DNA of 59,748 nucleotides, taken from NCBI GenBank assembly GCA_017441265.1, contig JAFRYE010000060.1, positions 1 through 59,748 on the forward strand, given 5' to 3'. Shown in pieces: positions 9,532-59,162 of the stretch; within the stretch, counting starts at the first letter, position 1, and each line of letters begins with the position of its first letter. The notes beneath the pieces were generated by a model that searched no databases, was not told where the DNA came from, and saw nothing but the letters and a program-made list of their open reading frames with translations. Source of the stretch: Lachnospiraceae bacterium. Lineage in GTDB: Bacteria; Bacillota; Clostridia; Lachnospirales; Lachnospiraceae. Both the position numbers and the translations under genes were made by a program.

Positions 9532-10298
9532 TTATAAAATCAAAATAGCAAAACAATGTAACATTTCATTGCATCCCCAACTCCCTTTACGTTCCGCCTC
9601 CCTCACATACATCTTCCGATTCGTCACCTGCCCCCGGTCGCCAATCGGTCTCTTCTCCTCGAACACCTTGCTCACGCGGTACAAAAAGCTCTCGATACTC
9701 CTAAATGATACATCATTTGCGTCAGTATTGCTGTATGCTGGTAGCATCATTTCAGCCGATGCAGCATGCTCCCGCTCGATCCTTGCGAGCGTCTCCTCCA
9801 ACTCCTGATAGCCCGAAAAGCCTCCTCCCTTTCTATTGGCCTCATTGTAATCTTTTTCGTGTCCAATAAATACACCCGACGATTCGGGCCCATGGTGTCG
9901 ATTTTGGTCACTCAACGCACCAACTCCCCCTTGCCCTTCCATCTTTTCGGGCAAATCCATCCCCACCGCCGCCTCCAGCACTGCATTCTTGATCGGCCGA
10001 AACACCTCATTTTCCGACAACGGCTCCTTAGGTGGAAAACTGCTCGTATATGTCGCAATAATCGCGCACTTCTGTTGATACCAAAGTTCATACAGTTCTG
10101 CGACCTTCGGATGCTTCTCCAAACGGTTCACAACCTCGTCCACGAGGTTCTTCACGTCCTTGGTCATGTAGCCATATTTGAGCTTGCCCTTCTGCGGGAG
10201 GCGGCGTACCACTGCAGGTCCTGCTCCGGGATCTTCATCGCCTGCGCGATGGTGCCGGCTTTGGCGCGGCTGAGTGTGCGCCAGCTTGCAAGCACCAT
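9532..10298 (-). pseudogene. Degraded MobP3-type relaxase
   Basis: Two frames match consecutive parts of MobP3 relaxases. From ATG 10298 one frame reads WRTLSRAKAGTIAQAMKIP and EQDLQWYAA, then goes out of frame at about 10200. A second frame, ending at 9532, continues KGKLKYGYMTKDVKNLVDEV and LSENEVFRPIKNAVLEA, as in the C-terminal half of the family. The stretch that normally follows QWYAA, with the metal-binding histidine cluster (HxxxHHPHVH type), is absent. The gene therefore has an internal deletion plus a frame change and cannot nick DNA. It marks the remains of a mobilisable element next to the AT-rich island. Confidence 0.7.
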
Positions 10299-10461
10299 AC
10301 TGTAATTCGTTGTGTAGTGAGATCGCCAGCATAAAAACGACTGACTGTATAAGTAAGCATACGAAAAAGCGCTTCCGGTCTCCCGGAAACGCTTTTGAAA
10401 TCAGGTTAATCTCTTTTGTCTTCGTCGTCTCACAAACTTCGTGCAGCCAAGCCGCTTCGTT

Positions 10462-11103
10462 TCAATTCCCACCCACCAGCGCTTTTCCGAGTTCATAGAC
10501 CGCCTCGCGCTCTTTCGGGAATACCGTCTCGTGCCTTAGCTGCTTCGCCTCCGGATTGAAGAATGACCACGGCCAGTCGGTCTTGGCGTAGTCCTTCAGC
10601 TGGAGCGTATCGCCGCTTACGAAGGTTTTGGTCGGTCAGACAAATGTCTCAAACGTCCGCTGATAGTCGTTCAAAAGATTCACGTAGGCAGTGTCCGGAG
10701 CGTTGCTTGTCATGATGAACAGAACCGGAACCGTCCTCTGCCTGCAGCAGGGATTTTCCGCATTGTAGGTAAGGCTTTGGAAAATGAGCCTCTCATACAG
10801 CGCCCGGAAGGACGCCGTCACCTGGCTGAGGTAGTTCGGAGAGCCGATGATCAGGCCGTCCGATTTCCGGATGGCGTCCAACACCGGGGTCAAACCGTCC
10901 TTGCACATGCAATGCCCCTTGTTGGCTTCTTTCTTGCATCCGAAGCAGGAGATGCAGCCCGTATATTTCTCTAACCGGAAGAGATCAAAATACTCCACAG
11001 TCGCTCCTGCGGCCTCCGCTCCCTTGGCGGCTTCCGCGAGCAACGTGTCCGTGTTCCATCCCTTGCGCGGTCCTGCGTTTACAACAGCAATCTTCTTTCC
11101 CAT
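10462..11103 (-). pseudogene. Iron-sulfur flavoprotein / flavodoxin-family oxidoreductase with in-frame TGA
   Basis: The ATG at 11103 follows AGGAAGGTGACC. The product has a flavodoxin-like FMN site and a cysteine motif GCISCFGC...GHCMC typical of iron-sulfur flavoproteins. At 10636-10638 the frame meets TGA. Past it the same frame stays open for 57 more codons and reads a family-like C-terminus (TFVSGDTLQLKDYAKTDWPW, ending ELGKALVGGN), stopping at 10462. Full length would be 213 residues. Family members, as I recall them, tend to have glycine at the TGA position, so GGA to TGA nonsense mutation is the simplest reading. Selenocysteine decoding is discussed in the findings. Confidence 0.75.
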
Positions 11104-11192
11104 GCGGTCACCTTCCTGTTTTTCACATACAGTCGCACTTTTTGTCGGCGCCCTCTTTGACGGCGCCCATTACCGACGCTCCGCTCGGACGG

Positions 11193-11318
11193 TCAGAACG
11201 GTCTCGTGTCCGGATCGCCGGACAATCCGACGCAGCCCGTGAGCGACGCGATCAGCTCGACGTCCGTCTCCTCAAGCTCAAAGTCAAACACCCGCAGGTT
11301 TTCTTCGATCCGCTCCTG
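11193..11318 (-). pseudogene. Aldo/keto reductase, C-terminal remnant
   Basis: One minus frame reads ERIEENLRVFDFELEETD and LIASLTGCVGLSGDPDTRPF before a TGA at 11193. This matches the usual C-terminus of aldo/keto reductases (RIxENxxVFDFELxxEDM...DPDTRP). No catalytic domain precedes it: the frame closes about 30 bases upstream and a different gene ends at 11349. It is a 3' scrap left by deletion. The neighbouring flavoprotein remnant may have belonged to the same redox cluster. Confidence 0.7.
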
Positions 11319-11348
11319 TGTTCCCAGGCAGCATTGTTCCGCCGGAAA

Positions 11349-12634: not shown

Positions 12635-12635
12635 G

Positions 12636-13143: not shown

Positions 13144-15780
13144 TTATTGATCAGCGATCGCAGCCTGCGCGGCCGCGAGGCGAGCGATCGGGACTCTGAA
13201 GGGTGAGCAGGATACATAGTCAAGACCAATCCGGTGACAGAACTCAACGGAGGTGGGGTCACCGCCGTGCTCGCCGCAGATGCCGACGTGCAGGTTCGGG
13301 TTGACTTCCTTGCCGAGTTTGACAGCCATCTTCATGAGCTTGCCTACGCCGTCCTGGTCGAGCTTCGCGAAAGGATCGCTCTCAAAGATCTTTTGGTCGT
13401 AGTAGCCGCCGAGGAATTTGCCGGCGTCGTCACGGGAGAAGCCGAAGGTCATCTGGGTGAGGTCGTTGGTACCGAAGCAGAAGAACTCAGCCTCGGTTGC
13501 GATCTCGTCAGCGGTGAGGGCCGCACGAGGAATCTCGATCATGGTGCCTACGTGGTACTTGATGTCTGCGCCCGCAGCCTTGATCTCCTCGTCAGCGGTC
13601 TCAACGACAACCTTCTTAACGTTCTTAAGCTCCTTGACTTCGCAGATGAGCGGGATCATGATCTCCGGCTCGATTGCCCAGTCGGGATGAGCATTCTTAA
13701 CTTCGATAGCAGCGCGGATGACTGCCTTGGTCTGCATCTTGACGATCTCCGGGTAGGTGACGGCAAGGCGGCAGCCTCTGTGGCCCATCATCGGGTTGAA
13801 CTCGTGGAGGGAATCACAGATAGCCTTGATCTCCTCAACGGTCTTGCCCTTCGCGTCAGCAAGCTTCTTGATGTCCGCTTCCTCGGTAGGAACGAACTCG
13901 TGGAGCGGCGGATCCAGGAAACGGATCGTAACCGGGTTGCCCTCAAGAGCCTCGTAGAGAGCCTTGAAGTCGCTCTGCTGGAACGGCAGGATCTTCTCGA
14001 GTGCTTCCTCGCGCTCTTCGCAGGTGTCGGAGCAGATCATCTCACGGAAAATGGCGATTCTCTCCGGGTCGAAGAACATGTGCTCGGTACGGCAGAGACC
14101 GATACCCTCGGCACCGAGCTCACGAGCCTTCTTAGCGTCGCGAGGGGTGTCTGCGTTCGTGCGAACGCTGAGCTTGCGATATTTGTCTGCCCATGCCATA
14201 ACGCGGCCGAACGTGCCGGCGATCTTCGCGTCAACGGTAGGGATGATTCCTTCGTAAATGTTACCGGTGGTTCCGTCGATGGAAATCTCGGAGCCCTCAA
14301 CGAACTTCTTGCCTGCCAGCGTGAAGGTCTTGTTAGCCTCATCCATGATGATGGCGTCGCAACCGGATACACAGCAGGTTCCCATACCGCGGGCAACAAC
14401 CGCCGCATGGCTGGTCATACCGCCGCGGACGGTCAGGATACCCTGAGCGGCCTTCATACCGGTGATGTCCTCAGGAGAGGTCTCAAGACGAACAAGAACG
14501 ACTTTCTCGCCTCTTGCATTCCAAGCCTCTGCGTCGTCAGCGGTAAATACAACCTTACCGCAGGCAGCTCCGGGCGAAGCGCCGAGGCCTTTGCCAAGAG
14601 GCGTAGCGGCCTTCAATGCCTTGGTGTCGAACTGAGGATGGAGAAGCGTGTCGAGGTTTCTCGGGTCGATCATTGCTACGGCCTCGGCCTCGGTCTTGTG
14701 ACCTTCGTCAACGAGGTCGCATGCGATCTGGAGAGCAGCCTGCGCGGTACGCTTGCCGTTACGGCACTGTAGCATGTAGAGCTTCTTGTTCTCAACGGTG
14801 AACTCCATATCCTGCATGTCATGGTAGTGGTTCTCGAGGATGCCGCAAACCTTAACGAACTCTGCGTAAGCCTCCGGGAACTCCTGCTCCATCTGCGTGA
14901 TCGGCATAGGAGTACGAACACCTGCAACTACGTCCTCGCCCTGAGCGTTCTTGAGGAACTCGCCCATCAGCTTCTTCTCGCCGGTAGCGGGGTCACGGGT
15001 AAATGCTACGCCGGTGCCGGACTCTTCGTTCAGGTTACCGAATACCATCGGCATTACGTTGACTGCGGTACCCCAGCTGTACGGGATATCGTTGTCGCGG
15101 CGATATACGTTTGCACGAGGGTTGTCCCAGGAACGGAACACTGCCTCGATCGCGAGCTTGAGCTGCTCAACGGGATCGGACGGGAAATCCTTGCCCAACT
15201 GCTTCTTGTACTCTGCCTTGAACTGCTCGGCAAGCTTCTTCAGGTCTGCGGCGTCGAGTTCGATATCGAACTTCACGCCTTTCTCTGCCTTCATCTTGTC
15301 GATCAGTTCCTCGAAGTACTTCTTGCCGACTTCCATTACGACGTCGGAGAACATCTGGATGAAACGGCGATACGAGTCATATACGAAACGCTCGAACTTC
15401 GGATCCGGGTTGCCGGCGATCATCGCAGCAACAACCTCGTCGTTCAGACCGAGGTTCAGGATCGTGTCCATCATACCGGGCATGGAAGCTCTCGCACCGG
15501 AGCGAACGGAAACAAGCAACGGGTTCTTGAGATCACCGAACTTCTTGCCGTTGATCTCCTCCATCTTGCGTACGCCTTCCATAGCCTGCGCCATGATCTC
15601 ATCATTAATCTTACGACCGTCTTCGTAGTACTGCGTGCAGGCCTCCGTCGTGATCGTAAAGCCCTGCGGTACCGGGAGACCGATGTTTGTCATCTCCGCG
15701 AGGTTCGCACCTTTGCCGCCCAACAGATTTCTCATGCCGGCATTGCCCTCGGTAAATGCGTATACCCACTTATTAGCCAT
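13144..15780 (-). CDS. ppdK: Pyruvate, phosphate dikinase
   Basis: This 878-residue enzyme interconverts pyruvate, ATP and phosphate with PEP, AMP and pyrophosphate, linking glycolysis and gluconeogenesis in anaerobes. The N-terminal ATP-grasp domain begins KWVYAFTEGNAGMRNLLGGKGANLAEM. The swivelling phosphohistidine domain carries GGMTSHAAVVARGMG. The C-terminal PEP-binding barrel ends with GLDYVSCSPFRVPIARLAAA, including the catalytic Cys. Length is normal for the family (about 875). The start has AGGAGGTCATAAGACAAT just upstream. It is monocistronic, with a promoter at 15915-15943 and a strong terminator at 13028-13084. In Clostridia the enzyme often runs in the PEP-to-pyruvate direction using pyrophosphate. 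Confidence 0.97.
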   Translation of the reverse strand: MANKWVYAFTEGNAGMRNLLGGKGANLAEMTNIGLPVPQGFTITTEACTQYYEDGRKINDEIMAQAMEGVRKMEEINGKKFGDLKNPLLVSVRSGARASMPGMMDTILNLGLNDEVVAAMIAGNPDPKFERFVYDSYRRFIQMFSDVVMEVGKKYFEELIDKMKAEKGVKFDIELDAADLKKLAEQFKAEYKKQLGKDFPSDPVEQLKLAIEAVFRSWDNPRANVYRRDNDIPYSWGTAVNVMPMVFGNLNEESGTGVAFTRDPATGEKKLMGEFLKNAQGEDVVAGVRTPMPITQMEQEFPEAYAEFVKVCGILENHYHDMQDMEFTVENKKLYMLQCRNGKRTAQAALQIACDLVDEGHKTEAEAVAMIDPRNLDTLLHPQFDTKALKAATPLGKGLGASPGAACGKVVFTADDAEAWNARGEKVVLVRLETSPEDITGMKAAQGILTVRGGMTSHAAVVARGMGTCCVSGCDAIIMDEANKTFTLAGKKFVEGSEISIDGTTGNIYEGIIPTVDAKIAGTFGRVMAWADKYRKLSVRTNADTPRDAKKARELGAEGIGLCRTEHMFFDPERIAIFREMICSDTCEEREEALEKILPFQQSDFKALYEALEGNPVTIRFLDPPLHEFVPTEEADIKKLADAKGKTVEEIKAICDSLHEFNPMMGHRGCRLAVTYPEIVKMQTKAVIRAAIEVKNAHPDWAIEPEIMIPLICEVKELKNVKKVVVETADEEIKAAGADIKYHVGTMIEIPRAALTADEIATEAEFFCFGTNDLTQMTFGFSRDDAGKFLGGYYDQKIFESDPFAKLDQDGVGKLMKMAVKLGKEVNPNLHVGICGEHGGDPTSVEFCHRIGLDYVSCSPFRVPIARLAAAQAAIADQ

Positions 15781-18426: not shown

Positions 18427-19680
18427 TCACAGTTCGTCGTACTGCTCCAGCAGATCATACACGCCGTCCTCGGAGAGCACGCCCCACTTCATTCCGGCCG
18501 GGAATTTGCCTTCCTCGTCGGCCGCAAAATCCGCTTTCCACAGCGGACTTTCATAGTACGCCGCAAGTTTACCGATCGTCGCCCGAAGCGCCTTGGTCCG
18601 AGATTTTGCCGCCCTCATCAGCGCGATCGCCTTGTCGAAGACGCCCTCCATCTCGCGGACTCGCAGCTCCCGGAACGTCCCGCAGATCTCCTCCTCGGCC
18701 TCACCGAGCGCCCTGATCCGCGCGATCGTGTTTCTCACTTCCCACTCGCCAAGCCGGCGCTCATCCTCGCCGCCCTCCAAACCGAGGGCGCGGCGGATGT
18801 TGTACTCAAGCCACTCGACCCACGTATACGCGATCCCGTACAGCGCGTCGTACGCGAGGAAACCGTTGTCGTAAGCACTCCGGTATCCCTCGTAAAATGC
18901 GACCAGATTCTCCTTCTTGTACGCTCCGTTCACCATGCCCGCCCACTGCAGTGCAAGGTCGACAAAAGCCCCCACCGGATTGCCGTACGAAAGGCACTCT
19001 AAGTCGATGACGAAGGGCTTGCCCCGAAACCACATCACATTTTTCGGATCCATATCGTCGTCGCAGATGCTCACGATCGCAGGGAGCGCCTCCCGAGCCT
19101 CGTTGAGCCGCTTCTGCGCAGCCTCAAGCAACTTCGTATTCTCCGCAAGAAGCTCTGCCACCGGGCTCCCCGCCTTCTGCGCCAAATGCGCATATTTCGC
19201 AAAATCAATCTCGCTCCGCTCGAGTGCACCGCCCTCCGCAGCCGAATGATCTGCCACGTCGCTCCCCGTCTCCTTCGTCTTCGAATCGATCGCATGAATT
19301 CTGCCGAGCAGCTCGCCCGCCTTGCGGCACTGCTCCGCCGTCACCGTGTTCGCATCGGTGATCTTGCCCTTCTGCCAGCGGAAAATGTAGAAGAACTCCC
19401 CGTCGAGCTCCTGCATTTTCCGACCGTTAAGAGTCATCGCAGCCACCATCGGAACGCGCGCTTCCTCAAGCCGCACCTCCAGCGCTTCCGCCGTCGCATA
19501 GTTCTCCCGCGCGGTCGGGCGCTTCATGATCTCCGGATTCAGGCATTTGACGGCGTAAACACCGCTGCCCGTCTGCACCTTGTACATGCGATGCATCAGC
19601 CCGCCGGACACGGGCTTGATCTCCGCCGTGACCTCACCGAGGCCGCAGCGCTTCATCAGTTTGGTTATCTTGTCTTTCAT
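18427..19680 (-). CDS. Aminoglycoside-phosphotransferase-fold (APH) small-molecule kinase
   Basis: The ATG at 19680 (AAGGA eight bases upstream) gives 417 residues. The protein kinase-like fold shows a glycine loop region (VSGGLMHRMYKV), the ATP-anchoring Lys in YAVKCLNPE, the catalytic loop ICDDDMDPKNVMW (D-x4-N, with the usual HGD replaced by DDD) and the metal-binding Asp in FVIDLECLSYG. Members phosphorylate antibiotics, choline, homoserine or other alcohols. Its distance from resistance cassettes favours a metabolic substrate. An extra C-terminal region of about 100 residues is helical. It carries two copies of the CATTTTCCG motif in inverted orientation (19379-19387 and 19414-19422). 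Confidence 0.8.
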   Translation of the reverse strand: MKDKITKLMKRCGLGEVTAEIKPVSGGLMHRMYKVQTGSGVYAVKCLNPEIMKRPTARENYATAEALEVRLEEARVPMVAAMTLNGRKMQELDGEFFYIFRWQKGKITDANTVTAEQCRKAGELLGRIHAIDSKTKETGSDVADHSAAEGGALERSEIDFAKYAHLAQKAGSPVAELLAENTKLLEAAQKRLNEAREALPAIVSICDDDMDPKNVMWFRGKPFVIDLECLSYGNPVGAFVDLALQWAGMVNGAYKKENLVAFYEGYRSAYDNGFLAYDALYGIAYTWVEWLEYNIRRALGLEGGEDERRLGEWEVRNTIARIRALGEAEEEICGTFRELRVREMEGVFDKAIALMRAAKSRTKALRATIGKLAAYYESPLWKADFAADEEGKFPAGMKWGVLSEDGVYDLLEQYDEL

Positions 19681-19768
19681 CGCTAAATCCTTGTAACATA
19701 ACACAAATTGCTAATAATCTTCTGAAACCGCTTATTTACCATACCACAAAATCCCAGTTTTTGCCATC

Positions 19769-19833: not shown

Positions 19834-20970
19834 TTATCTCATTTTCCGAACAAAACTCTCCACACGCTCCGGTCCGACATAGAACGTCCTGCCGCTCCAT
19901 CCGATGTTCGTCGTGACAAATCCACCGCTGTACACTTTGATCACAACGTTCTGCTGGCCGAGTAGCCGGTAATCAACGCCGAGTTCGACGCAACACTCTC
20001 CGAGCTCCTTGTCCTGAAGAAACTCTGAAACTTCCTCGGAAACGATCAACCGCGTTGTGCCGGTTCCGGGATTCGGAGCCGTCCATACAGACTGTGGCAT
20101 AGGGTCATCCGGCAAATATGCAACACCGCCGAAGTCCCCGGGAAGTTCCTCCGTAAAGAATGCAGGAACCGCTTCTGCGGCGAACAGTTCCTCAAGAAGC
20201 AACGGAATTGTCTTGCTTCCGTCCTCTGTCCTTCGCTCGCCACCTTGTTCGTGCAGCACGATCGCTCGCAGATCGGTATATCGCAACAGCTGCGTTCCCT
20301 CCGCAAACTCCGCATAGGTTTTCGCCCCAAACAGATCGTTTCCGTACACCCAATACCGATCCTCATCCGGAAATTTCACCGCGACCGCAAAGGAAGTATC
20401 CACATCCGTTATCTCATAAACATCCACTTCGGTTTCCCGCTGAACTTCCGCCGGAACATCCCGGTTTTCAACCGCAATCCAGGCTCCTTCGGTAATTTCT
20501 TCGTTGCGTCCGTCTCCGGACGTCTTCCCATCGGATCCTGCGGTCTTCTCGCCTACCGTCCGCTCGCCGTAATCCAGGCCGATCACCGTAAGCTTTCCGA
20601 GATGTTTGCCGACCGCTTCCTCACATATTCCCGGAGACCCGAAATACCTTGCTCCGCCGTAGAGCAGTTCCGAGTATTTTTCGTAGTTCGGTGCGTCTGC
20701 CCAGCGCTTTGTCACACTCGTCTTCTCTTTCGCGGGTTCCACGCTCTCGCCTTTTTTTGCGGGCGTCCCGCTCTCCCCGGCAGGCGTTTCCTTCTTCAGC
20801 AGACCATTCGCCGCAACTCCGACAACCGCGATCAAAATGACCGCGGCAGCCGCTGCTGCCGCACGGCGCAGGATTGGCCGACGCGGAGCCTGCTCGTCCG
20901 CTTCCATGACTTCCAAAACAAATCGATCATCCACGTCCGTGAACGCCGAGAACAAATCGATCTCTTTCAT
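19834..20970 (-). CDS. Membrane partner of the ECF sigma factor (probable anti-sigma factor)
   Basis: The ATG at 20970 (AAGGA eight bases upstream) gives 378 residues. A short cytoplasmic N-terminus (MKEIDLFSAFTDVDDRFVLE) resembles the sigma-binding heads of many Firmicute proteins encoded next to ECF sigma genes. One transmembrane helix follows (about residues 36-58, rich in Ala/Val/Ile), then a Lys/Glu/Pro linker and an extracytoplasmic region with a sensor-like beta-rich tail. The start overlaps or abuts the end of the sigma gene, which indicates coupled translation. The anti-sigma role is inferred from gene order and topology; no ZAS zinc motif is present. Confidence 0.75.
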   Translation of the reverse strand: MKEIDLFSAFTDVDDRFVLEVMEADEQAPRRPILRRAAAAAAAVILIAVVGVAANGLLKKETPAGESGTPAKKGESVEPAKEKTSVTKRWADAPNYEKYSELLYGGARYFGSPGICEEAVGKHLGKLTVIGLDYGERTVGEKTAGSDGKTSGDGRNEEITEGAWIAVENRDVPAEVQRETEVDVYEITDVDTSFAVAVKFPDEDRYWVYGNDLFGAKTYAEFAEGTQLLRYTDLRAIVLHEQGGERRTEDGSKTIPLLLEELFAAEAVPAFFTEELPGDFGGVAYLPDDPMPQSVWTAPNPGTGTTRLIVSEEVSEFLQDKELGECCVELGVDYRLLGQQNVVIKVYSGGFVTTNIGWSGRTFYVGPERVESFVRKMR

Positions 20971-20971
20971 T

Positions 20972-21544
20972 TTACTCATCCTTTCCGTCCAGATGCCGCT
21001 TGAGTTTCTGCCGCATCGTATAAAGCTGGTTTGTGACATATCTCTCGTTCCGACCGATCTGCTTCGCAATCTCCGCAACCGTATAGGAGCGCCAGTATCG
21101 TTTCAGGAAAATGAGCCTCTTCTCCCCGGGAAGGCTGTCGAGAAACGAATCAATCTTTTTCCTGAGCGTCTCGTCCTCATTTTCCGAAAGATCGACACCC
21201 GGGTCAGGCAAGCAATCGGACAGTTCCTCATACGAAACCATCGTGATCCCGCCGCCGCGCTTCTTGCGCTGCCTGCTGCGCAGGACCGTGATCGCCTGAT
21301 TGCGCGTCGCCTTCGAAAGATATGCTTTCAGGTTCGTGATCTCCGTCGGAAGCGCATGATCCCACAGCTGCATCATCACGTCGTTCACGCATTCCTCGGC
21401 ATCCTGTTCGTCCCGAAGGATCCCATAGGCAATCGATGCAAGATAGCGCTCATACTGCGCATGGATCCTGCGTATCGCCTCTTCCCGATCTTCCTGAAGC
21501 AGTGAAAGGATCTGTGTCTCTTCTACTGTTGATCTCTGTTTCAC
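20972..21544 (-). CDS. ECF-family RNA polymerase sigma factor
   Basis: The GTG at 21544 follows GAGGAG seven bases upstream and gives 190 residues; the longer frame to 21610 has no ribosome site. Region 2 is visible as YLASIAYGILRDEQDAEECVNDV followed by WDHALP. Region 4 is LIFLKRYWRSYTVAEIAKQI with a helix-turn-helix (IGRNERYVTNQLYTMRQKLK). It would direct RNA polymerase to a small envelope or stress regulon. The downstream gene is its likely anti-sigma factor. The stop overlaps the potential start codons of that gene. Confidence 0.92.
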   Translation of the reverse strand: MKQRSTVEETQILSLLQEDREEAIRRIHAQYERYLASIAYGILRDEQDAEECVNDVMMQLWDHALPTEITNLKAYLSKATRNQAITVLRSRQRKKRGGGITMVSYEELSDCLPDPGVDLSENEDETLRKKIDSFLDSLPGEKRLIFLKRYWRSYTVAEIAKQIGRNERYVTNQLYTMRQKLKRHLDGKDE

Positions 21545-21699
21545 TTCCGACTCCTCACAAAGGGTATTTTCCGACGGGCAACCTCCGGATCCTCCGGATG
21601 ATCCCGGCACCGCATCGCCCCTTCACCTATACAGACGCTCTTTTTTGCAAAATGTCTTGAAATAAAATGAACCTTATCGATACCATATCGACAGTTCCA

Positions 21700-21773: not shown

Positions 21774-21824
21774 TCAATTGCGAAGTTGCCTAATATATTA
21801 TCCAAGTTATCAATGGGGGCCGCT

Positions 21825-23126
21825 ATGGAAATCCAACGCGATACATATTTAAAGAAACTTGTTGCCTTTATGGGGAGCGGACAGGTCAAAGTCATCACCG
21901 GTATCCGGCGCTGCGGAAAATCCTATCTGCTTCACACCATTTTCCGAAACTATCTCCTTGATCAAGGCGTTCCCGCAGATTGCATCCTTTCTTATGAATT
22001 GGATCTTGCAAAGGATATCCGATACCGAAATCCCCTCGAGTTAGCAAGAACCGTGCGTGAACAGGTTGACGGTCAACCGGAACTTTTCTATCTGTTCGTT
22101 GACGAAATACAAATGTCAGACGAAGTTCCCAATCCGTACAACCCGACAGGGAAGGCGATCACCTTCTATGATGCTCTCAATGATCTGAATTCGCTCCCGA
22201 ATCTGGACATCTACGTGACCGGAAGCAATTCCCGCATGCTTTCCAGCGACATTCTGACAGAATTTCGGGGGCGCAGTGATGAAATCCGTGTCCATCCTCT
22301 CAGTTTCGCTGAGTACTACACTTATATCGGAGGGGATAAGGAAGACGCATTTGACAATTATGCTTTTTACGGAGGTCTCCCGCTGATCCTCTCAAGGCCG
22401 GATGATACTGCCAGAATGGAATATCTTAAGTCCCTCTTTTCCGAAGTATATCTCAGAGACATTGTTGAGCGCAAGAAGATTAAGCGGGAAGATGTTCTCT
22501 CTGCCACGCTGGATCTGTTGTGTTCCTCCATCGGATCCCTCACAAATCCGAACAATATAGCGAACGCTCTGAACACAAAGCAAAAGCTCAGCGGGGAAGA
22601 CACGGTTGCCCCGAACACGGTGAAGTCGTATATCGGTCATTTGGCAGACGCCTATCTGTTCGAAGAGTGCCGGCGGTATGATGTGAAAGGCAAAGACTAC
22701 TTTGACTATCCGAATAAGTACTACTGTGACGACCTCGGCCTGAGGAATGCACGCATCGGATTCCGTCAGCAGGAAATGACCCATATCATGGAAAATATCA
22801 TTTATAATGACCTTCGCATCCGCGGCTGTGAAGTCGACATAGGTATCGTATACGGCACCGATAAGAGCAAATCAGGACAGACTGTTCAGGTTCCGAGAGA
22901 GATAGACTTCATAGCTGCCAAAGGTTCGAAAAAAACGTATATTCAGTCTGCATATGCATTGGAGACCGAAGAGAAAACCCGCGCGGAAAATAAACCCCTT
23001 TCACTTACCGGAGATTTCTTTCCGAAGATCATTGTTCGTCACGATATCCGCAAGCGGTGGTACGATGACCATGGGGTGCTGAATATCGGTATTCTGGATT
23101 TTCTGCTTGACGATACGATCGTCTGA
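21825..23126 (+). CDS. AAA-type ATPase with DUF4143 domain
   Basis: The ATG at 21825 follows GGGGG and gives 433 residues. The N-terminal AAA_14 domain has a Walker A loop in VITGIRRCGKSYLLHTIF, a Walker B in YLFVDEIQM and a sensor 1 in IYVTGSNSRML. The C-terminal DUF4143 region (TVAPNTVKSYIGHLADAYLF and REIDFIAAKGSKKTY) contains a winged helix and a degenerate restriction-nuclease-like fold. These proteins are common in anaerobes and human-associated bacteria as stand-alone genes of unknown function; some behave as mobile or toxin-antitoxin-like modules. It is monocistronic with its own promoter and terminator. Confidence 0.9.
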   Translation: MEIQRDTYLKKLVAFMGSGQVKVITGIRRCGKSYLLHTIFRNYLLDQGVPADCILSYELDLAKDIRYRNPLELARTVREQVDGQPELFYLFVDEIQMSDEVPNPYNPTGKAITFYDALNDLNSLPNLDIYVTGSNSRMLSSDILTEFRGRSDEIRVHPLSFAEYYTYIGGDKEDAFDNYAFYGGLPLILSRPDDTARMEYLKSLFSEVYLRDIVERKKIKREDVLSATLDLLCSSIGSLTNPNNIANALNTKQKLSGEDTVAPNTVKSYIGHLADAYLFEECRRYDVKGKDYFDYPNKYYCDDLGLRNARIGFRQQEMTHIMENIIYNDLRIRGCEVDIGIVYGTDKSKSGQTVQVPREIDFIAAKGSKKTYIQSAYALETEEKTRAENKPLSLTGDFFPKIIVRHDIRKRWYDDHGVLNIGILDFLLDDTIV

Positions 23127-27183: not shown

Positions 27184-27215
27184 TCGGAAAATGCGATTTC
27201 CGGGGCATTTTCCGC
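27184..27215. repeat. Stem-loop made of two inverted CATTTTCCG copies, purL leader
   Basis: CGGAAAATGC (27185-27194) and GCATTTTCCG (27205-27214) form a perfect 10-base-pair stem with a 10-base loop. The stem lies in the 5' leader of purL, about 45 bases upstream of its ATG. There is no T run, so it is not a standard terminator. It may affect transcript stability, or it may be a chance pair of the dispersed motif. Confidence 0.75.
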
Positions 27216-29328: not shown

Positions 29329-29370
29329 TCATTTTCCGAAGAATTCACGCCGGTTTCGCCGGCAAATGAT
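29328..29370 (+). terminator. Nested hairpin after the LysR gene
   Basis: ATCATTT (29328-29334) pairs with AAATGAT (29364-29370), and inside it GCCGG (29349-29353) pairs with CCGGC (29359-29363). The outer left arm is part of the CATTTTCCG motif. The T run is poor (a T-rich tract starts about 10 bases later), so termination is only possible. Confidence 0.4.
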
Positions 29371-30354: not shown

Positions 30355-30374
30355 TCATTTTCCGACATAACAAT

Positions 30375-31522: not shown

Positions 31523-31589
31523 AGTTCCAGCCTTTCTTCTCATGCGGAAAATGACCGCACAGCCGCGTCATCGTCTCGCGACCTGTCTA

Positions 31590-31644: not shown

Positions 31645-32601
31645 TCAGCACACCGACAGCACAATGCCGGCGATGACCACCGCGGCACACAGCATTTTCC
31701 GCAGGATCCGCTTCTCCCGGAACACAAGCCAGCCGCCCAGGATCGTCACGATGGTGCATGACTGTTTCAGCACCGTCATCACGATCACGCGGCTCTCCGG
31801 ATACCCGTTGGCGATGAACAGCGCGCGGTCCGCGATGACGAACAGGATGCTAAGTCCCCAGATCCAGGGATTCTTAAGCGTCCTCGCCACATTCAGCGGA
31901 ACGCGGCGCACGACTGCGTAAACCACGTAAAATACGACCATAAAGAACATATACCACAGCTGCAGCTGCCCGCTCGTCAGATCCCCGTCGCGCATCAGCA
32001 CCTTGTCCATGTTGCCGCTGACCGCATTCAGAAAGCACGAAATCATCGCAAGCAGCACATAAAACCGCATTCTGTGCGGCCTCTGCGGTGCTTCCTCCGG
32101 CTGCTTCGGCGCTTCGTCGGGGTTTTGCGACTCTTCTTCGGACGCCTCCTGCGCGCTGTCTTCCTTCACAAACCGAAGCAAAAACAGTCCGATGCACACC
32201 AGCACAAGTCCCGCGCCCTGGAACAGCGACGGTCTCTCGCCGAGCACCAGGATTCCCAGCAGTGCGGAAAATACGACCCGCGCCATATCCAGGATCCCGT
32301 ACAGGCTCACCGGCATCCGGTGCAGCGCGCGGAATCCGCATATCCACGCCACGAAAATGACGAAGGATTTTATGGCGATGGCGCCGTACTGCGCCGGCCG
32401 CAGCCCGAACAGATACCCGCGGGTGCTCATTTCCCCGAAGGCGATCTCCGCCGCGGACGTCGCAATCACGCAAACGAGCGAAAGCACGGTGTAGAGGATG
32501 AGAACCTCGATGACCGTGCTTTTCACCATCGCTTTCTTCTTAAAAATCTCCCGTGCTCCCTTCAAAACTCCGTAGAGGAGCACACACGAAATCCAGACCA
32601 T
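31645..32601 (-). CDS. EamA/DMT family transporter with a charged central linker
   Basis: This 318-residue protein has about ten transmembrane helices in two halves (LLYGVLKGAREIFKKKAMV; FYVLLAMISCFLNAVSGNMD). They are joined by an acidic cytoplasmic linker of about 35 residues (SAQEASEEESQNPDEAPKQP). The C-terminal half ends ILGGWLVFREKRILRKMLCA, typical of EamA proteins. The substrate is unknown. The ATG at 32601 has no ribosome site of its own; it follows four bases after the stop of a possible 13-codon leader frame that does have AGGAGG. Confidence 0.8.
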   Translation of the reverse strand: MVWISCVLLYGVLKGAREIFKKKAMVKSTVIEVLILYTVLSLVCVIATSAAEIAFGEMSTRGYLFGLRPAQYGAIAIKSFVIFVAWICGFRALHRMPVSLYGILDMARVVFSALLGILVLGERPSLFQGAGLVLVCIGLFLLRFVKEDSAQEASEEESQNPDEAPKQPEEAPQRPHRMRFYVLLAMISCFLNAVSGNMDKVLMRDGDLTSGQLQLWYMFFMVVFYVVYAVVRRVPLNVARTLKNPWIWGLSILFVIADRALFIANGYPESRVIVMTVLKQSCTIVTILGGWLVFREKRILRKMLCAAVVIAGIVLSVC

Positions 32602-45522: not shown

Positions 45523-46275
45523 ATGAAACTGTTCCCGCGCCCCGTCCGAAAGGAAATCGCCCGCTTTGAAGGGCTTACGTACACGCTCTACCGGAGCAGC
45601 CGCAAGACGATCAGTCTTCAGTGCAAAGAGACCGGCGAGCTCGTCGTGCGCGCGCCGTTATTTTGCTCCGTAAAAGAAGTCGAAGCCGTCCTGGCTTCCC
45701 ACCGCGACTGGATCCGCACGAAGCTGGCGGACATCGCGAAGGCCCGCGAAGAGTCCGACCGGCCGGAGACGCATTTCTTCGACGGCGCCCTGCTTCCGTT
45801 CGGAAACGGCAGTCTTCGCATTCGCATCGAGGAAGACCCCGACGCCAAACGCTACACCGTCACTCTGCACGAACAGGACGGAAAGCCGGAGCTGCTGCTC
45901 CGCGGCGCCGAACTTCCCGCCGCCACCTGCAAGATCCTCGTCTCCCGCTGGGGCCGCCGCTACGCCGGCGAAGTTCTCCGGAACCGGCTGAACCACTGGG
46001 CCGCCGTGCTGCGCGTCTCCTACAATGCCATGTCGATCAAGGAGACGAAGACGCGATGGGGCAGCTGCAGCGCCCTCGGCAACATCAATCTTCACTGGAA
46101 GCTGCTGATGATCCCGGAGTCCCTGAGCGACTACGTTCTGGTTCACGAGCTGTGCCACCGCTTTGAGCTCAACCACAGCGCCGCCTTCTGGGCGCGCGTC
46201 GAGAGCGTGCTGCCCGACTATCGCGAGCGCAGGAACGAGCTTCGGAAAATAGAGAAACAGATCCTGACCTGGTAA
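45523..46275 (+). CDS. YgjP-like (DUF45) metal-dependent hydrolase
   Basis: The protein has 250 residues. The central region has the family motif MSIKETKTRWGSCSALGNIN, and the C-terminal part has a zinc-peptidase motif VLVHELCHRFELNHSAAFW (HExxH form with Cys, plus a distant His). The family resembles M48-type proteases of the SprT/YgjP group, but no substrate is known. It is cytoplasmic, monocistronic, with AAGGAAAGG upstream and a terminator downstream. Confidence 0.88.
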   Translation: MKLFPRPVRKEIARFEGLTYTLYRSSRKTISLQCKETGELVVRAPLFCSVKEVEAVLASHRDWIRTKLADIAKAREESDRPETHFFDGALLPFGNGSLRIRIEEDPDAKRYTVTLHEQDGKPELLLRGAELPAATCKILVSRWGRRYAGEVLRNRLNHWAAVLRVSYNAMSIKETKTRWGSCSALGNINLHWKLLMIPESLSDYVLVHELCHRFELNHSAAFWARVESVLPDYRERRNELRKIEKQILTW

Positions 46276-46361: not shown

Positions 46362-46387
46362 GGCTCATTTTCCGTTGTCGGAACCGA

Positions 46388-48447: not shown

Positions 48448-51120
48448 TCAGTAGACCGCCTCTTTGGCCGCCTTCTTCCACTCCTCGTCCGTGTGGCGGA
48501 ACGTGTAGTAGCGGAGTCCGCCGAAGCCTGCTCTGTCGATGTACCGGGACGTCGCAAAATCCCCTTTCTGCGACACGATCATCACATCGTTCCGGTCATA
48601 CAGAGGGATCGCAGCGAAGCCGCTTAAGTAGACTTTCTCCATCAAGCCGAAGATTTCCGCCCGGGTCGCCGCGTCGTATTCGGAAAATGTCGCCAGCGCG
48701 TTTGAGCCGTCCTCCGCCGCGATCACGCAGGTCTCGTCCGTGCCGTCCATCCAGAGCGCCCACTGTCGTAACGGCGCCGTGTAATCGATGCCGTTCACGC
48801 GGAGTTTCACGTTTATCTGCGCGGTGTCATAGCCGTATTCCAACTGGTTGCCGGCTCCCGTTGCATCATCGCAATAGCATTCAAACAGAACGCCGTACGT
48901 CTCATAGACCGAGCCGCCCCACGTCGAGAGGATCATGTCCGCTCCGCCGGAGCGCATGGTCTGATAGAAATTCGGATCCACGGTCGTCTTGATCCGGATC
49001 TTCCCCGCAAAATCGGTACCTTCGCAGGCCGTCTCAAGCGCGTCGCTCAAAAACTCCGCGATCGCGTTGTAGATGTCTTCCGAACCGGCGAGCAGAAGCT
49101 CGATCTCGACCTCGGAATACCCGTTGTACAATCCACCCAGGACACACTCCCGATACGCCTGTTGCATATATGCTCTCGCCGCCTCGATATCGTATCCGGT
49201 GACCGCCGCATACGCCTCGTCGAGGGTCTTATACTCTTCGTCGTTGCCGTATTTGACGCCGTACAATCCGACCAGAGCCTTCTTTGCCCCGTCCGTCTCG
49301 CGGTACACGGCTCCGCCCGTTGCATCGCAGATGTAGCTCCGTCCCAGCAGTCCGAGGGATGCATTGCCCGCCGCAGTATAATACGTAGCGAACTTCGCGC
49401 GGTTGAGCGCCGCGGAAAATGCCTTGCGGAACGTTTCGTTGGCCAGGATCTTCCCTTTTCTCTCCCCGAGGGACTCCGCATTCGTGTTGAATGTGATCTT
49501 CGTCGTGTACGGCAGCGGAGTAAACCGCAGATACTCGCTGTTTCCGTAGGTCTTCAGATCGTCGGCGATCAGATCCATCCGGTCGAGCTCGCCCTTGCGG
49601 AACGCTTCCGTCTGCTTGCGATGCTCCGCAAGAACCTGCAGGCTGATCCGGTCAGCCTGATACTGTCCCTTGTGAAGGCCATCGGTATAGCCGAACCACT
49701 GCTCATTTCTCTCGAACTCAATCTGGCGGTTCGCCTTGAAGAGTGTGAGTTTGTACGGTCCGAAGCCGGCCGTCTTCTCAAGGCTCGTGCCGTAGTCGGT
49801 AGTGATCGCGACAATGCCGTCACTGTCCTTGTCGACCTGCTTATTTTTCGCATTGTAATACGTCTTACAGGACTCCCAGAGTTCCGGTTTCACCAGATAC
49901 GCGGTCGTCAGAAACTCCGGCACCGCGATCTCCGCGTCGGCCACCGGCCGCGCCGTCACAAACACAAACGTATATGTGTCAACCATAAAGAACCCGACTT
50001 CCGTCCAGTCCTTCACGGAGTTGTCCGCGTCAAAGGAGACATAGTACGCCAAGTCGCTCTCCTTCTCGTTTCCCCAGTAGTCCGAGCCCGTGAACGCAAA
50101 GAGGAGCTCGATCGTCTTGTCCGACACCGGGACATACCCTTCCCTGTCGGCCTTAGCCGCGAGCTGGTTGTACACCTCCTCTGGGAACTGCCCCCGGTCT
50201 TTAAACTGCTCGATGCTCATGCCGCCGAGCCATGCGTAGCCCGTCTTCAGCCCGAAGTACAGCTTCGCCCCGCCGGGCGTCGTGTATACGCCGTCCTTGC
50301 CGGCGATCTTCGCCTCCCAAGCGAACGCCGCGTTCCGGCCGTCCGGGGAGTTCTGTTCCCGCGAGGTTCTTCCCGAATGGTAATACGATCTCGCGTTGTA
50401 AATCTCAAACGTGCCCGAAGTGAGCGCCTCCGCCTTTTGGTTTTGCATCTTGGGATTGAGCAGCTCCATCGCCGAGTAGATCACGGTCGACGCGTCGATC
50501 GCGGTTCCGTCGTCCCAACACAGCCCCTTGCGAAGCACGATCTTCCAGGCCTTCGCGGTGTCTCCCTCCTCGATCCCGTAGCGGCCGACATAGTCCTTCG
50601 TCACATCCGCAGGAAGCTCCTGCGCCATCTCGCACAGAACACTCCAGCCGTCTTTCGTCTCATTTGGCACAAAATCATAGTAGCCGCTGCCGGTATACGA
50701 AAGGATCGTGCGGTCGCTCTCGCTCTCCGGGGCAAATGTCGACGCGTGAAGCGACGAGGCCTCGGTGATATAATCGCGGTACGTATACACCTCGGGATCC
50801 GTGTAATCCTTCCCCGCGACGCCTGCGTACGCCTTGGTATTCACGCTGCTTTTGCCCGTCGACGCCGTGATCTCGCCGGCGTACAGCGTTCCGTCCTCCT
50901 CTTTCTTCACGGAGAGGTCCACACTTCCGGGCAGCGCTTCCGTCGGCTTCTCGCTCGGCGCATCCGTCGGTGTCATCATCGGCGTGACATCCGTCATCGG
51001 CTCTTCGGTCACTGACGGCGTTGGCTCGCTTGTATTATTCTGATTGGCCCCGTTCTCGCATCCCGCAAGCGCCATCGACGCCGTGAGAAGCAGCACGATT
51101 GCCGTCTTTTTTATTTTCAT
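48448..51120 (-). CDS. Orphan large OppA-like binding lipoprotein
   Basis: The 890-residue lipoprotein (signal MKIKKTAIVLLLTASMALAG, then Cys) has a Ser/Pro/Thr linker. Its family 5 solute-binding fold parallels OppA of this window, for example IVLRKGLCWDDGTAIDASTV against the OppA segment LRKDAKWEDGTPINADTY, and SLEKTAGFGPYKLTLFKANR. It has no permease or ATPase genes beside it, so it may feed the OppBCDF channel encoded 9 kb away or act in signalling. It is monocistronic with an extended -10 promoter. Two CATTTTCCG copies lie inside the gene. Confidence 0.85.
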   Translation of the reverse strand: MKIKKTAIVLLLTASMALAGCENGANQNNTSEPTPSVTEEPMTDVTPMMTPTDAPSEKPTEALPGSVDLSVKKEEDGTLYAGEITASTGKSSVNTKAYAGVAGKDYTDPEVYTYRDYITEASSLHASTFAPESESDRTILSYTGSGYYDFVPNETKDGWSVLCEMAQELPADVTKDYVGRYGIEEGDTAKAWKIVLRKGLCWDDGTAIDASTVIYSAMELLNPKMQNQKAEALTSGTFEIYNARSYYHSGRTSREQNSPDGRNAAFAWEAKIAGKDGVYTTPGGAKLYFGLKTGYAWLGGMSIEQFKDRGQFPEEVYNQLAAKADREGYVPVSDKTIELLFAFTGSDYWGNEKESDLAYYVSFDADNSVKDWTEVGFFMVDTYTFVFVTARPVADAEIAVPEFLTTAYLVKPELWESCKTYYNAKNKQVDKDSDGIVAITTDYGTSLEKTAGFGPYKLTLFKANRQIEFERNEQWFGYTDGLHKGQYQADRISLQVLAEHRKQTEAFRKGELDRMDLIADDLKTYGNSEYLRFTPLPYTTKITFNTNAESLGERKGKILANETFRKAFSAALNRAKFATYYTAAGNASLGLLGRSYICDATGGAVYRETDGAKKALVGLYGVKYGNDEEYKTLDEAYAAVTGYDIEAARAYMQQAYRECVLGGLYNGYSEVEIELLLAGSEDIYNAIAEFLSDALETACEGTDFAGKIRIKTTVDPNFYQTMRSGGADMILSTWGGSVYETYGVLFECYCDDATGAGNQLEYGYDTAQINVKLRVNGIDYTAPLRQWALWMDGTDETCVIAAEDGSNALATFSEYDAATRAEIFGLMEKVYLSGFAAIPLYDRNDVMIVSQKGDFATSRYIDRAGFGGLRYYTFRHTDEEWKKAAKEAVY

Positions 51121-56720: not shown

Positions 56721-56791
56721 CTCTCACTCCGATACCCGAATTGCCCGCACATAACATGCGGGAGCTTTTTGCGAATATTACCACAGTTTGT

Positions 56792-56820
56792 ATTGTACCG
56801 CATTTTCCGAGTGTGCGCAA
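56792..56820 (-). promoter_or_regulatory. Promoter of the C39-like protein gene
   Basis: On the minus strand TTGCGC (56815-56820) and TACAAT (56792-56797) are separated by 17 bases. The spacer contains CGGAAAATG on that strand, a copy of the dispersed motif. Confidence 0.5.
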
Positions 56821-56834
56821 GCATAACGCGCTTC

Positions 56835-56863
56835 TTGTTTCGCCCCGCGTTTCATGCTATACT
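56835..56863 (+). promoter_or_regulatory. Promoter of the LRR/InlB-repeat protein gene
   Basis: TTGTTT (56835-56840) and an extended -10 TGCTATACT (TATACT at 56858-56863) are separated by 17 bases, about 53 bases upstream of the ATG. It is divergent from the promoter at 56792. Confidence 0.6.
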
Positions 56864-56916
56864 TGATCTGATACCGTTAGTATTCAGTGCGCGTTCCACA
56901 TCAAAGGAGGCAACGG

Positions 56917-59091
56917 ATGAAACTACGAAAAAACACTGTTTTTGCGGCTGTCACTGTACTTTTGTTTGTTTTCTTTGCCGCATTTTCGGCGCAGACGGCA
57001 TCGGCCGCAGCCGACATTGAGATCAACGAGACGAATTTTCCGGATCCGCAGTTTCGAACTTATGTCCGGGGTTTTGACCTGGACAAGAACGGTTTCCTGA
57101 GCTCGTCGGAGCGTTCTGCCGTGACGGAGATCAGCATCGACGAAGACACCGTGGCGTACGTTGAAGACGTATGGAGCCTTAAGGGAATCGAATTCTTCAT
57201 GTCACTCAAGATCCTGAACTGCTCCTACACCAGGATTGAGACGCTCGATCTGCACGCGAACACCAAGCTCGAGGAGCTGTACTGCGGAAACACATACATC
57301 GAAACACTCGACTTAAGCGCCAACACAAAGCTGCGTGAGCTGGTCTGTTTTACGACGGATGTCCGCAGTCTTGACCTCTCCCGCCAGACCGAGCTTCTCT
57401 CCTTAACCTGCTACAATTGTCCGCTGCTGACTTCCCTGAACCTCAACGCGAACACAAAACTCGATTATCTGGATTGCGGTTACTGTTCCCTCACCTCTCT
57501 CGACGTAACGAAGAACACGGACCTGACTTCGCTCGGTTGTGCATTCAACCCCCTCACTTCGCTGAACCTGTATTACAACACAGAACTTGTCGATTTAGGA
57601 TGCTACGGTTGCAACTTGTCCACACTCAATCTCAGCCGCTGTACCAAACTGGAATCCCTTGACTGCAGCCGAAACCCGCTGACGCAATTGGATCTGCGTT
57701 CGCAACCCGATTTGACGGTGCTTCGGTGCGAGTTCACCTGCATCACGGAAAATGACCTGCTTCTGGCCTCCGCCGTCAAAAGCCAAAAGGACGCCTGCAC
57801 CCGCAGACTCTGTACCGTTTCCAAGTACGGTGATGAATTCTATGACGTCTGGGTTGACGGCATAGTTACCAATGTCGCGGAATTCGCTTCCGGCGACTTC
57901 CTAATCACCGTCGACGCCGCAGTCGCCTCCGGCGGCAATGCCCACGTCTATTTCTGTCTTAACACCGGTGACGAAGGCGCTCCGGATACGATCACGGCAA
58001 AACTCGGTTCGACGGTTACCATTCCGAGTTCATCGGTAAGCAGCTATACCGCATACTTTATGGGCTGGTCCCATTCCCCGACGACAACAACCGCAACCTA
58101 TAAAACCGGAGACACGCTGACGCTCACAAAAGACGTCGTCCTGTTCGCGGTCTGGAAACCGAAACGCCTCAGCGTGACATTTGACTTAAACGGCGGCACA
58201 AGCGGAGCTCCCGCCAAGATTACCGGCAAACTCTGCACGGAACGGTTTGTCATTCCGAAGTCCTCCCCCGTACGGGAAGGCTACTATTTCCTCGGTTGGG
58301 CGATCTCCGATGAAGCGACGCAACCGGATTATGTAAGCGGTGACTGGGATTATTGCTACTGTGATTACATTCTGTATGCAGTCTGGTCTCCCCGCAAGAA
58401 CAAGATCTCTTTCAATGCAAACGGCGGTGCGGGGATGCTTCCAAAACCCATCGTCACATATACGGCCATTGACGAGACCATCCCTTCCGCCTCCCTGACG
58501 AGAAGCGGTTACTGGTTCCTCGGCTGGTCGACCGACAAAAATGCCGCGAAGGCGACCTACAAGAGCGGCAGCGTGATCACCGTCACCAAGGACACCGTCC
58601 TGTACGCCGTCTGGAAGAGCGACAGCACCGCCAAATGCCGCCTCTCCTACGACCGCAACGGCGGAGGCGGCAATGCGCCGACAGCTGTCGAGGTGAACTC
58701 CGGCACGAAAGTAACGATTCCCAAAGCCTCTGTCAGCCGCACAGGCCACTACTTCCTCGGCTGGGCGACCACACGCTCCGCAACGAGCCCGCAGTACAAG
58801 AGCGGCGACGTCCTGACAGTCACAAAGACTACGGTTCTGTACGCCGTCTGGAAGAAACAGACTGTTACTCTCTCCTTTGACCGCAACGGCGGAAGCGGCA
58901 ACGCCCCCGCCAAAATCACCACGACCTACGGCTCAACCGTAACAGTCGCAAAATGCTCCGTCTCCCGGGATGGTTACTACTTCCTCGGCTGGTCGAAAAC
59001 CCAGGGCGCTACGACCGCAACCTACAAGAGCGGAAGCACGCTGACGCTTAACGGCAGCGTTCGTCTGTACGCAGTCTGGAAGAAAAAGTAA
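56917..59091 (+). CDS. Secreted leucine-rich-repeat protein with five InlB B-repeats
   Basis: The ATG at 56917 follows AAAGGAGG and gives 724 residues. A signal peptide (FAAVTVLLFVFFAAFSAQTA) is followed by a calcium-loop-like FDLDKNGFLSSSE (about 53-65). A leucine-rich region of about ten short repeats (LDLSANTKLRELVC, TSLNLNANTKLDYLDC) comes next. The rest is five Listeria-Bacteroides (InlB B-type) repeats of about 75 residues, each ending YFLGW...LYAVW or a variant. There is no LPXTG or transmembrane tail, so it is probably released or held by non-covalent contact. Such proteins act in adhesion to host or plant surfaces. Confidence 0.88.
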   Translation: MKLRKNTVFAAVTVLLFVFFAAFSAQTASAAADIEINETNFPDPQFRTYVRGFDLDKNGFLSSSERSAVTEISIDEDTVAYVEDVWSLKGIEFFMSLKILNCSYTRIETLDLHANTKLEELYCGNTYIETLDLSANTKLRELVCFTTDVRSLDLSRQTELLSLTCYNCPLLTSLNLNANTKLDYLDCGYCSLTSLDVTKNTDLTSLGCAFNPLTSLNLYYNTELVDLGCYGCNLSTLNLSRCTKLESLDCSRNPLTQLDLRSQPDLTVLRCEFTCITENDLLLASAVKSQKDACTRRLCTVSKYGDEFYDVWVDGIVTNVAEFASGDFLITVDAAVASGGNAHVYFCLNTGDEGAPDTITAKLGSTVTIPSSSVSSYTAYFMGWSHSPTTTTATYKTGDTLTLTKDVVLFAVWKPKRLSVTFDLNGGTSGAPAKITGKLCTERFVIPKSSPVREGYYFLGWAISDEATQPDYVSGDWDYCYCDYILYAVWSPRKNKISFNANGGAGMLPKPIVTYTAIDETIPSASLTRSGYWFLGWSTDKNAAKATYKSGSVITVTKDTVLYAVWKSDSTAKCRLSYDRNGGGGNAPTAVEVNSGTKVTIPKASVSRTGHYFLGWATTRSATSPQYKSGDVLTVTKTTVLYAVWKKQTVTLSFDRNGGSGNAPAKITTTYGSTVTVAKCSVSRDGYYFLGWSKTQGATTATYKSGSTLTLNGSVRLYAVWKKK

Positions 59092-59162
59092 CGACTACGG
59101 GGTCATTTTCCGACCCCCGTCGAAACCATATCATTTTCATCACACGAAAGGAGTATCCGAAC

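Follow-up and report, generated by a model that had tools for sequence, protein, structure and literature searches.

A nine-base word over-represented in a Lachnospiraceae genus shares features with DNA uptake sequences

Why does a single nine-base word recur every few kilobases along a bacterial genome? The question arises from a 59,748-nt stretch of Lachnospiraceae DNA (the window), in which the 9-mer CATTTTCCG had been predicted to be strongly over-represented. The stretch is number 36 of the 79 contigs that make up a 2,585,061-base assembly. We propose, as the probable explanation, that CATTTTCCG serves one genus of Lachnospiraceae as a self-DNA tag of the uptake-sequence type and was spread by biased natural transformation. 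The word, its distribution, its variants and the lineages that carry them, and a set of transformation genes were read directly from the genomes.

Abundance and placement of the word

All 19 exact copies named in the original prediction are present between positions 10008 and 59112, 12 on the + strand and 7 on the - strand. Dinucleotide shuffling of the window gave an expectation of 0.88 copies (none of 100 shuffles reached 19) and a second-order Markov model one of 1.26, which puts the excess at about 15-22-fold: the predicted enrichment is strong, but its proposed size of 40-fold or more was too high. CATTTTCCG ranks top among the over-represented 9-mers of the window (z 15.8), and the claim of a genome-wide signal is borne out by the whole assembly, which has 1042 copies (511 forward and 531 reverse), compared with 9 of the reversed word. 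This corresponds to 403 copies per Mb, or about one per 2.5 kb, on both strands.

Besides the whole-genome count, a codon-aware model had been suggested as a check, and both uphold the excess. The model was run on a genome sample of 21 stretches including the window (415,838 bases), in which a crude gene caller predicted 306 genes and 87% coding sequence; its crudeness affects the split between coding and intergenic copies, not their total. The sample holds 158 copies, compared with 9.5 expected under a second-order Markov model. The 109 coding copies compare with 9.98 +/- 2.77 in 60 within-gene synonymous-codon shuffles (11-fold; largest shuffle, 17), the 46 intergenic copies compare with 1.87 expected under the second-order model (25-fold), and 3 further copies overlap gene edges. 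Because the coding excess survives synonymous-codon shuffling, codon usage does not explain CATTTTCCG. The idea that the word is a relic of codon usage, base composition or a mobile element draws some support from the family, in which it is not rare (often some 50-100 copies per genome, by eye), but the coding excess refutes it for the high-count genomes. All six reading frames are used (same sense 12, 25, and 15; opposite sense 21, 29, and 7), and the flanks are not conserved beyond weak preferences. In sampled DNA of the sister species G006 and G018 the word does not exceed background (10 copies vs 7.1 expected in 200 kb), and the lineage-specific variants described below make a mutational or codon relic unlikely. 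We therefore give a relic next to no probability.

Within the sample, the word is tight at positions 2-5 (ATTT) and 8 (C) and intermediate at position 6, and forms with other bases at positions 1, 7, or 9 are also in strong excess (TATTTTCCG, 56 copies vs 5.8 expected; CATTTTTCG, 62 vs 6.7; CATTTTCCA, 47 vs 3.4). The flanks are weak, with T or G before the word, A at the first two downstream places (39% and 43%), and a slight A/T preference over about six bases downstream, which resembles the A/T-rich flank carried by the uptake signal sequence (USS) of Pasteurellaceae. Relative to a mononucleotide expectation, over-representation declines as mismatches accumulate (58-, 6.4-, 1.9-, 1.35-, 1.16-, and 1.02-fold, counted from zero mismatches), as has been described for uptake sequences (PMC1939737). 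A DNA-modification motif or another self-marking word of a defence system could explain why the word is absent from an AT-rich island with restriction-type genes at the start of the window, but the graded one-mismatch excess would still need a drive. Restriction, moreover, usually thins out its own sites rather than enriching them, and we consider such a motif very improbable.

Called genes contain 109 of the 158 copies (69%) and span 87% of the sample, compared with 65% of USS copies in genes and about 86% coding sequence in Haemophilus influenzae (PMC2346458). The coding copies are oriented with the gene in 52 cases and against it in 57; as far as PMC2346458 describes them, uptake sequences likewise have no general orientation bias. 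Intergenic copies cluster behind stop codons, with 13 of 38 usable sites within 15 nt past a stop, compared with 5.9 expected (none of 2000 randomisations was as high), and the TGATCATTTTCCGA contexts at 29330 and 30356 belong to this cluster. Starts have 3 of these sites within 20 nt, compared with 6.6 expected (122 of 2000 randomisations were as low). Among 753,338 pooled bases of high-count species, 16 neighbouring pairs are within 80 bp of each other, compared with 6.8 expected, and 12 of these are inverted (- then +), in the order CGGAAAATG...CATTTTCCG. Five of the 12 are one orthologous pair with arms 35 bp apart (19379/19414 in the window); when it is counted once, 8 of 12 are inverted. 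The inverted pairs are 11-52 bp apart. Among uptake sequences, inverted pairs frequently act as terminators, and such pairs are described for the DNA uptake sequence (DUS) of Neisseriaceae (PMC3630211). The overall spacing of CATTTTCCG is near random, with a coefficient of variation of 0.94 over 150 gaps.

Strands were assigned from the GC skew of each of the 21 stretches, as the assembly is a draft. The G-rich strand has 67 of the sampled copies and the C-rich strand 91 (raw p 0.067), where the second-order model expects 3.9 and 5.4; the observed ratio matches that of composition, so there is no replication polarity to explain. Chi-like and segregation signals are expected to be polar to replication, and Escherichia coli Chi is strongly so, which makes the lack of polarity the main evidence against either. 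A Chi-like site, at which a resecting nuclease (AddAB/RecBCD kind) would become a recombinase loader and which would mark self DNA, would fit a lineage-specific, non-palindromic word of 8-9 letters, and E. coli Chi has a similar density. It would not account for an excess that is greater between genes than within them, inverted pairs at such short distances would make little sense, and neither the strong one-mismatch excess nor variants that shift within one genus would be expected of a nuclease site. We regard a Chi-like role as decidedly unlikely.

Dialects, lineages, and positional turnover

All 22 genus genomes (79-100% complete) were counted, and exact copies of CATTTTCCG number 1060, 1042, 1019, 1005, 808, 797, 763, 763, 744, 728, 453, 435, 421, 389, 324, 272, 253, 224, 212, 96, 73, and 63. 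In a PurL tree of 17 genus genomes and four outgroup rows, the low-count genomes G016, G018, and G006 (96, 73, and 63 copies) form one clade (support 99/97), and G012 (253 copies) is placed beside the remaining genomes (89/89), which comprise a clade of six with 212-435 copies (99/99) and a clade of seven with 763-1060 copies (100/100). G003, G014, and G020 resemble the latter clade by partial PurL (96-97%), and so does G007 (453 copies), judged from a fragment of its PurL and from its pilus genes. The genus is thus a natural experiment, with species that lack the word, species with a few hundred copies in a mixed dialect, and species with about 1000 copies of one dialect.

Across 397 family genomes from 334 genera, most carry CATTTTCCG at a few times the reversed control when judged by eye, often at the copy numbers mentioned above. 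This baseline is at least in part due to composition (in G024, 4 copies vs 3.5 expected in 80 kb). The outliers are G110 and G413, which are of one genus (401 and 354 copies vs 15 and 17 reversed), and G126 (337 vs 20); in samples of these genomes the excess of the exact word is modest (4 vs 1.4 in G110 and 4 vs 1.1 in G126). Two other genomes were considered and set aside: G329 (233 copies in the whole genome) has 3 copies vs 3.6 expected in 80 kb, and G245 (340 copies) is not claimed as a carrier, as its sample comprises 11 kb only. G329, from another genus, has a different strong word, CCTCACTCGG (14 vs 0.1), which occurs with TCACTTAGC/TCACTAAGC.

When the inner two bases of the CATTNNCC frame are left free, lineages favour different forms. 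TT dominates in the genome of the window (259 vs 18.9 expected; next is TG with 36 vs 12.8) and in its near relatives (TT 137 vs 11.9, TG 31 vs 8.5), and a second clade uses both (TT 68 vs 11.8, TG 57 vs 7.6). G110 favours forms with G first (GC 19 vs 1.1, GA 16 vs 1.6, GG 12 vs 1.4), with TT at 11 vs 3.8. Counts over whole genomes point the same way. The G-variant CATTTGCCG reaches 445 copies in G013, with 431 found in G007 and 354 in G017, and is lower in the genome of the window (155), G006 (41), and G018 (41; reversed control 33, 50, and 66 in these three). All six genomes of the genus that includes G110 contain 192-283 copies of CATTGCCCG, compared with 0-52 in 35 other genomes searched alongside, none of which is from the genus of the window. 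CATTTTCCG, CATTTGCCG, and CATTGCCCG look like dialects of one CATTNNCC frame, and with the exception of G007 these differ by lineage.

In 80-kb samples of the low-count genomes G006 and G018, no replacement word of the same kind stood out. The CATTNNCC forms are at most two- to three-fold enriched there, with TT 23 vs 11.4 and GC 8 vs 2.7 in G018 and TG 15 vs 7.4, TC 13 vs 5.4, and AC 5 vs 1.6 in G006. The top words of these genomes look like other repeats, namely CAATGGATGG in G006 (13 vs 0.1) and TCCTATGAAA (10 vs 0.1) and GAGGAGATC (18 vs 0.9) in G018.

Positional turnover was compared among six high-count species, which have about 80% nucleotide identity in their aligned parts, and each site was counted once per other species. 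Sites are intact in 63 of 179 site-by-species comparisons (35%), compared with 23.0% of 177,581 control 9-mers of equal G+C, and the remaining 116 are not intact. The expectation that positions would be conserved in relatives is therefore only partly upheld: sites survive more often than controls, but most do not survive. Judging by the alignments, some window copies look new in their species (e.g., 31693, intact in none of six relatives); others have a counterpart with a single mismatch in a relative. Because density is kept while most positions change, molecular drive suits the data better than fixed functional sites.

This turnover bears on the main rival, in which CATTTTCCG would be the binding site of a chromosome-organising or housekeeping protein (a nucleoid protein, a condensin, or a replication factor) that is kept by selection. 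Such a site could be genome-wide, on both strands, and as dense as observed; a lineage-specific word with variants and a degenerate core would also fit, and so would sites that are intact more often than control 9-mers. Yet nearly two in three comparisons are not intact, the spacing is near random, and no more than 63-96 copies occur in three species of this genus, two of which are at background in samples. Many sites of chromosome-organising proteins are also palindromes, which CATTTTCCG is not. Taken together, we find a protein-binding site rather unlikely.

Transformation genes and the case for an uptake tag

The genome of the window encodes on contig 30 PilB, PilT, PilC, two N-methyl pilins, a prepilin peptidase, and PilM, followed by a 248-aa protein behind PilM, a minor pilin, and a 620-aa protein. 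Among the 14 genus genomes in which the pilus operon was read, PilB, PilT, and PilC are present in all, and PilD and the minor pilin in 13 each (the G007 contig ends before the minor pilin); a full-length PilB match (E 1e-134 or better) was found in 17 of the 22 genus genomes. ComEA occurs in all 22 (21 above the curated cut-off), ComEC in 20, and DprA in 20, with none in G016. In G016 and G017, ComEC is in two pieces (G016:C63:24535-25331 and G017:C57:53707-54488, the latter with internal stops), which may be a decayed channel or assembly errors. ComEC of the window's species (L219 8513-10849) is 28-30% identical to ComEC of G018, G006, G004, G016, and G017, and PilT is 91-95% identical in seven species compared outside the window's clade. 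Two pilins (L205 12173-13219 and relatives) are about 50-60% identical among close species in which PilT is 98-99% identical, which indicates fast evolution.

The pilins of the operon are candidate receptors only. The minor pilin was considered for this role, and nothing in the 13 sequences gathered singles it out. None of the genes marks the carriers of the word, as ComEC, ComEA, the pilus, and DprA were found both with and without it.

Among the options that the original prediction had raised, a DNA-uptake-like word fits best; Chi or segregation fits poorly for lack of polarity, and a mutational or codon relic fails on the codon shuffles. From the features described above we infer competence, biased uptake, a receptor, and drive, which could act together as follows. 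Cells would take up free DNA via the type IV pilus and a ComEA/ComEC channel, and a putative cell-surface component would bind DNA bearing CATTTTCCG in preference to DNA that lacks it. Fragments favoured in this way would then recombine, spreading the word and repairing it where mutation creates it. Such a molecular drive could account for a copy roughly every 2.5 kb, for the use of both strands and all frames, for the highest density in permissive sequence, and for lineage-specific dialects.

Several observations weigh against this uptake-tag model. In the accounts compared here, PMC3630211 and PMC1939737 among them, Neisseriaceae and Pasteurellaceae are the only groups with a proven uptake bias. 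The mismatch spectrum is a second point: under the second-order model the ratios by mismatch load are 16.7, 2.56, 1.02, and 0.95, so that the excess stops at one mismatch, and the 9-fold drop of CATTTTCCG from zero to one mismatch is shallower than those of published uptake sequences (92-fold in H. influenzae and 82-fold in Neisseria gonorrhoeae; PMC1939737). No gene-end bias of CATTTTCCG was detected (quintiles 28, 15, 21, 21, and 16; p 0.26); such a bias is reported for the uptake sequences of Pasteurellaceae and is no defining trait of the DUS/USS kind as a whole. The link between dialect and clade is imperfect, as G007, which is near G000 by its PurL fragment and pilus genes, has 453 copies of the T-form and 431 of the G-form. 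Pooled over 80 named Lachnospiraceae loci, the CATTNNCC frame is barely enriched (954 vs 797 expected; reversed 590 vs 543), which indicates that it is no family-wide trait. Finally, the top carrier G009 (1060 copies) unexpectedly gave no DprA match, and G006 and G018, which have no enrichment of the word, retain ComEC, ComEA, DprA, and the pilus operon. The genes thus allow transformation but cannot tell carriers from non-carriers.

Like the DUS of Neisseriaceae, whose receptor is ComP, CATTTTCCG is a short, non-palindromic, high-copy word that has no strand polarity, is over-dense between genes, may form inverted pairs, and has lineage variants with a shared core in genomes that encode a type IV pilus and ComEA/ComEC (PMC3630211). 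It differs from DUS in being an unrelated word of a Bacillota host, with a degenerate middle (the CATTNNCC frame), far more one-mismatch forms, and fewer copies than the 2245-5918 of the DUS dialects, and its uptake role and receptor are putative. Neither strand of CATTTTCCG contains CTG, which is described as the core common to all neisserial DUS dialects (PMC3630211). With the USS of Pasteurellaceae it shares a nine-base core and the genic share given above, and it is distinguished by word, host, the lack of gene-end bias, and the shallower mismatch drop. Similarity to Chi is limited to density and length. HIP1 (GCGATCGC) is likewise a short word that is over-represented genome-wide, in cyanobacteria, but it is a palindrome, unlike CATTTTCCG.

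We did not find CATTTTCCG in published papers, nor, among the titles listed, a report of an uptake word in Bacillota, in a search that left most subscription papers and all bioRxiv preprints outside. If experiments confirm the role of CATTTTCCG, it would be the first uptake tag in Bacillota. It would also be a third unrelated case and one outside Proteobacteria, implying that self-recognition in transformation evolves repeatedly and needs no outer membrane. The dialects of DUS are regarded as restricting gene exchange in Neisseriaceae to kin. The chances seem to us evenly balanced that some Lachnospiraceae genera independently evolved sequence-specific uptake of self DNA, with CATTNNCC dialects between and within genera limiting exchange in the same way. 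Some gut Lachnospiraceae would then transform often enough to reshape their genomes, and CATTTTCCG would be of practical use as a tag for introducing DNA into these bacteria.

The copies in the window and their surroundings

The 19 copies are listed in Table 1. The crude caller places 7 of them between genes; as PurL probably starts downstream of copies 8 and 9, the eight intergenic copies originally counted are a fair figure. The stop-codon contexts described for individual copies were also found as predicted (copies 10, 11, and 19), and copy 14, described as following a terminator, is behind a G+C-rich stem and a T run.

Table 1. Exact copies of CATTTTCCG in the window, with their state in the relatives compared site by site where aligned (G011, G005, G015, G009, G002, and G010). 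ORF, open reading frame.
Copy	Position	Strand	Setting	State in relatives
1	10008..10016	+	First past AT-rich island; within 266-aa ORF 9532-10332(-); intergenic by crude caller	
2	14045..14053	-	Within pyruvate phosphate dikinase gene	
3	19379..19387	-	Left arm of inverted pair within 425-aa ORF 18427-19704(-)	Intact in G011, G005, G009, G002; one mismatch in G015; G010 not aligned
4	19414..19422	+	Right arm of 19379/19414 inverted pair	Intact in G011, G005, G015, G009, G002; G010 not aligned
5	19840..19848	+	3' end of ORF 19834-21078(-)	One mismatch in G011
6	21178..21186	+	Within ORF 20972-21610(-)	Intact in G011
7	21938..21946	+	Within ORF 21786-23126(+)	Not intact in G015, sole relative aligned
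8	27185..27193	-	Left arm of inverted pair directly upstream of conserved PurL start	One mismatch in G011
9	27206..27214	+	Right arm of 27185/27206 inverted pair	Not intact in G011
10	29330..29338	+	Starts 2 nt past end of ORF 28426-29328(+); context TGATCATTTTCCGA	Intact in G011, not in 5 other aligned relatives
11	30356..30364	+	Starts 2 nt past end of ORF 29416-30354(+); context TGATCATTTTCCGA	Intact in G010, sole relative aligned
12	31545..31553	-	Immediately upstream of ORF 30416-31543(-)	Not intact in 3/3 aligned relatives
13	31693..31701	+	Within ORF 31645-32601(-)	Not intact in 6/6 aligned relatives; one mismatch in G002
14	46366..46374	+	Behind G+C-rich stem and T run, downstream of ORF 45523-46275(+)	One mismatch in G009
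15	48681..48689	-	Within ORF 48448-51120(-)	Three mismatches in G009
16	49413..49421	-	Within ORF 48448-51120(-)	One mismatch in G009
17	56801..56809	+	Between divergent ORFs 54156-56720(-) and 56887-59091(+)	
18	57746..57754	-	Within ORF 56887-59091(+)	
19	59104..59112	+	12 bases past end of ORF 56887-59091(+)	

The first 10 kb had been predicted to be free of the word, and positions 1-10007 indeed contain no copy; if copies were as frequent there as elsewhere in the window, this would have a chance of 0.02, which is weak evidence alone. Depletion in AT-rich islands was rejected as independent support, because four of the five 2-kb tiles sampled with less than 45% G+C come from the island in the window itself. 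This island (positions 1-10332) encodes an HNH endonuclease, a methyltransferase, a GmrSD-type restriction protein, and NOV_C, and its ORF 9532-10332(-) has a MobL match below the cut-off; it looks like a defence or mobilisation island.

The inverted pair 19379/19414 is the best conserved, with both arms intact in four of five aligned species and one mismatch in one arm in the fifth. Its host, ORF 18427-19704, has a phosphotransferase (APH, PF01636) domain and DUF4298. The best named matches of the window's long PurL (FGAM synthase) are in Lachnospiraceae metagenome assemblies, including one obtained from horse faeces, at 85% identity, and isolate RUG14279, at 87% across part of the protein.

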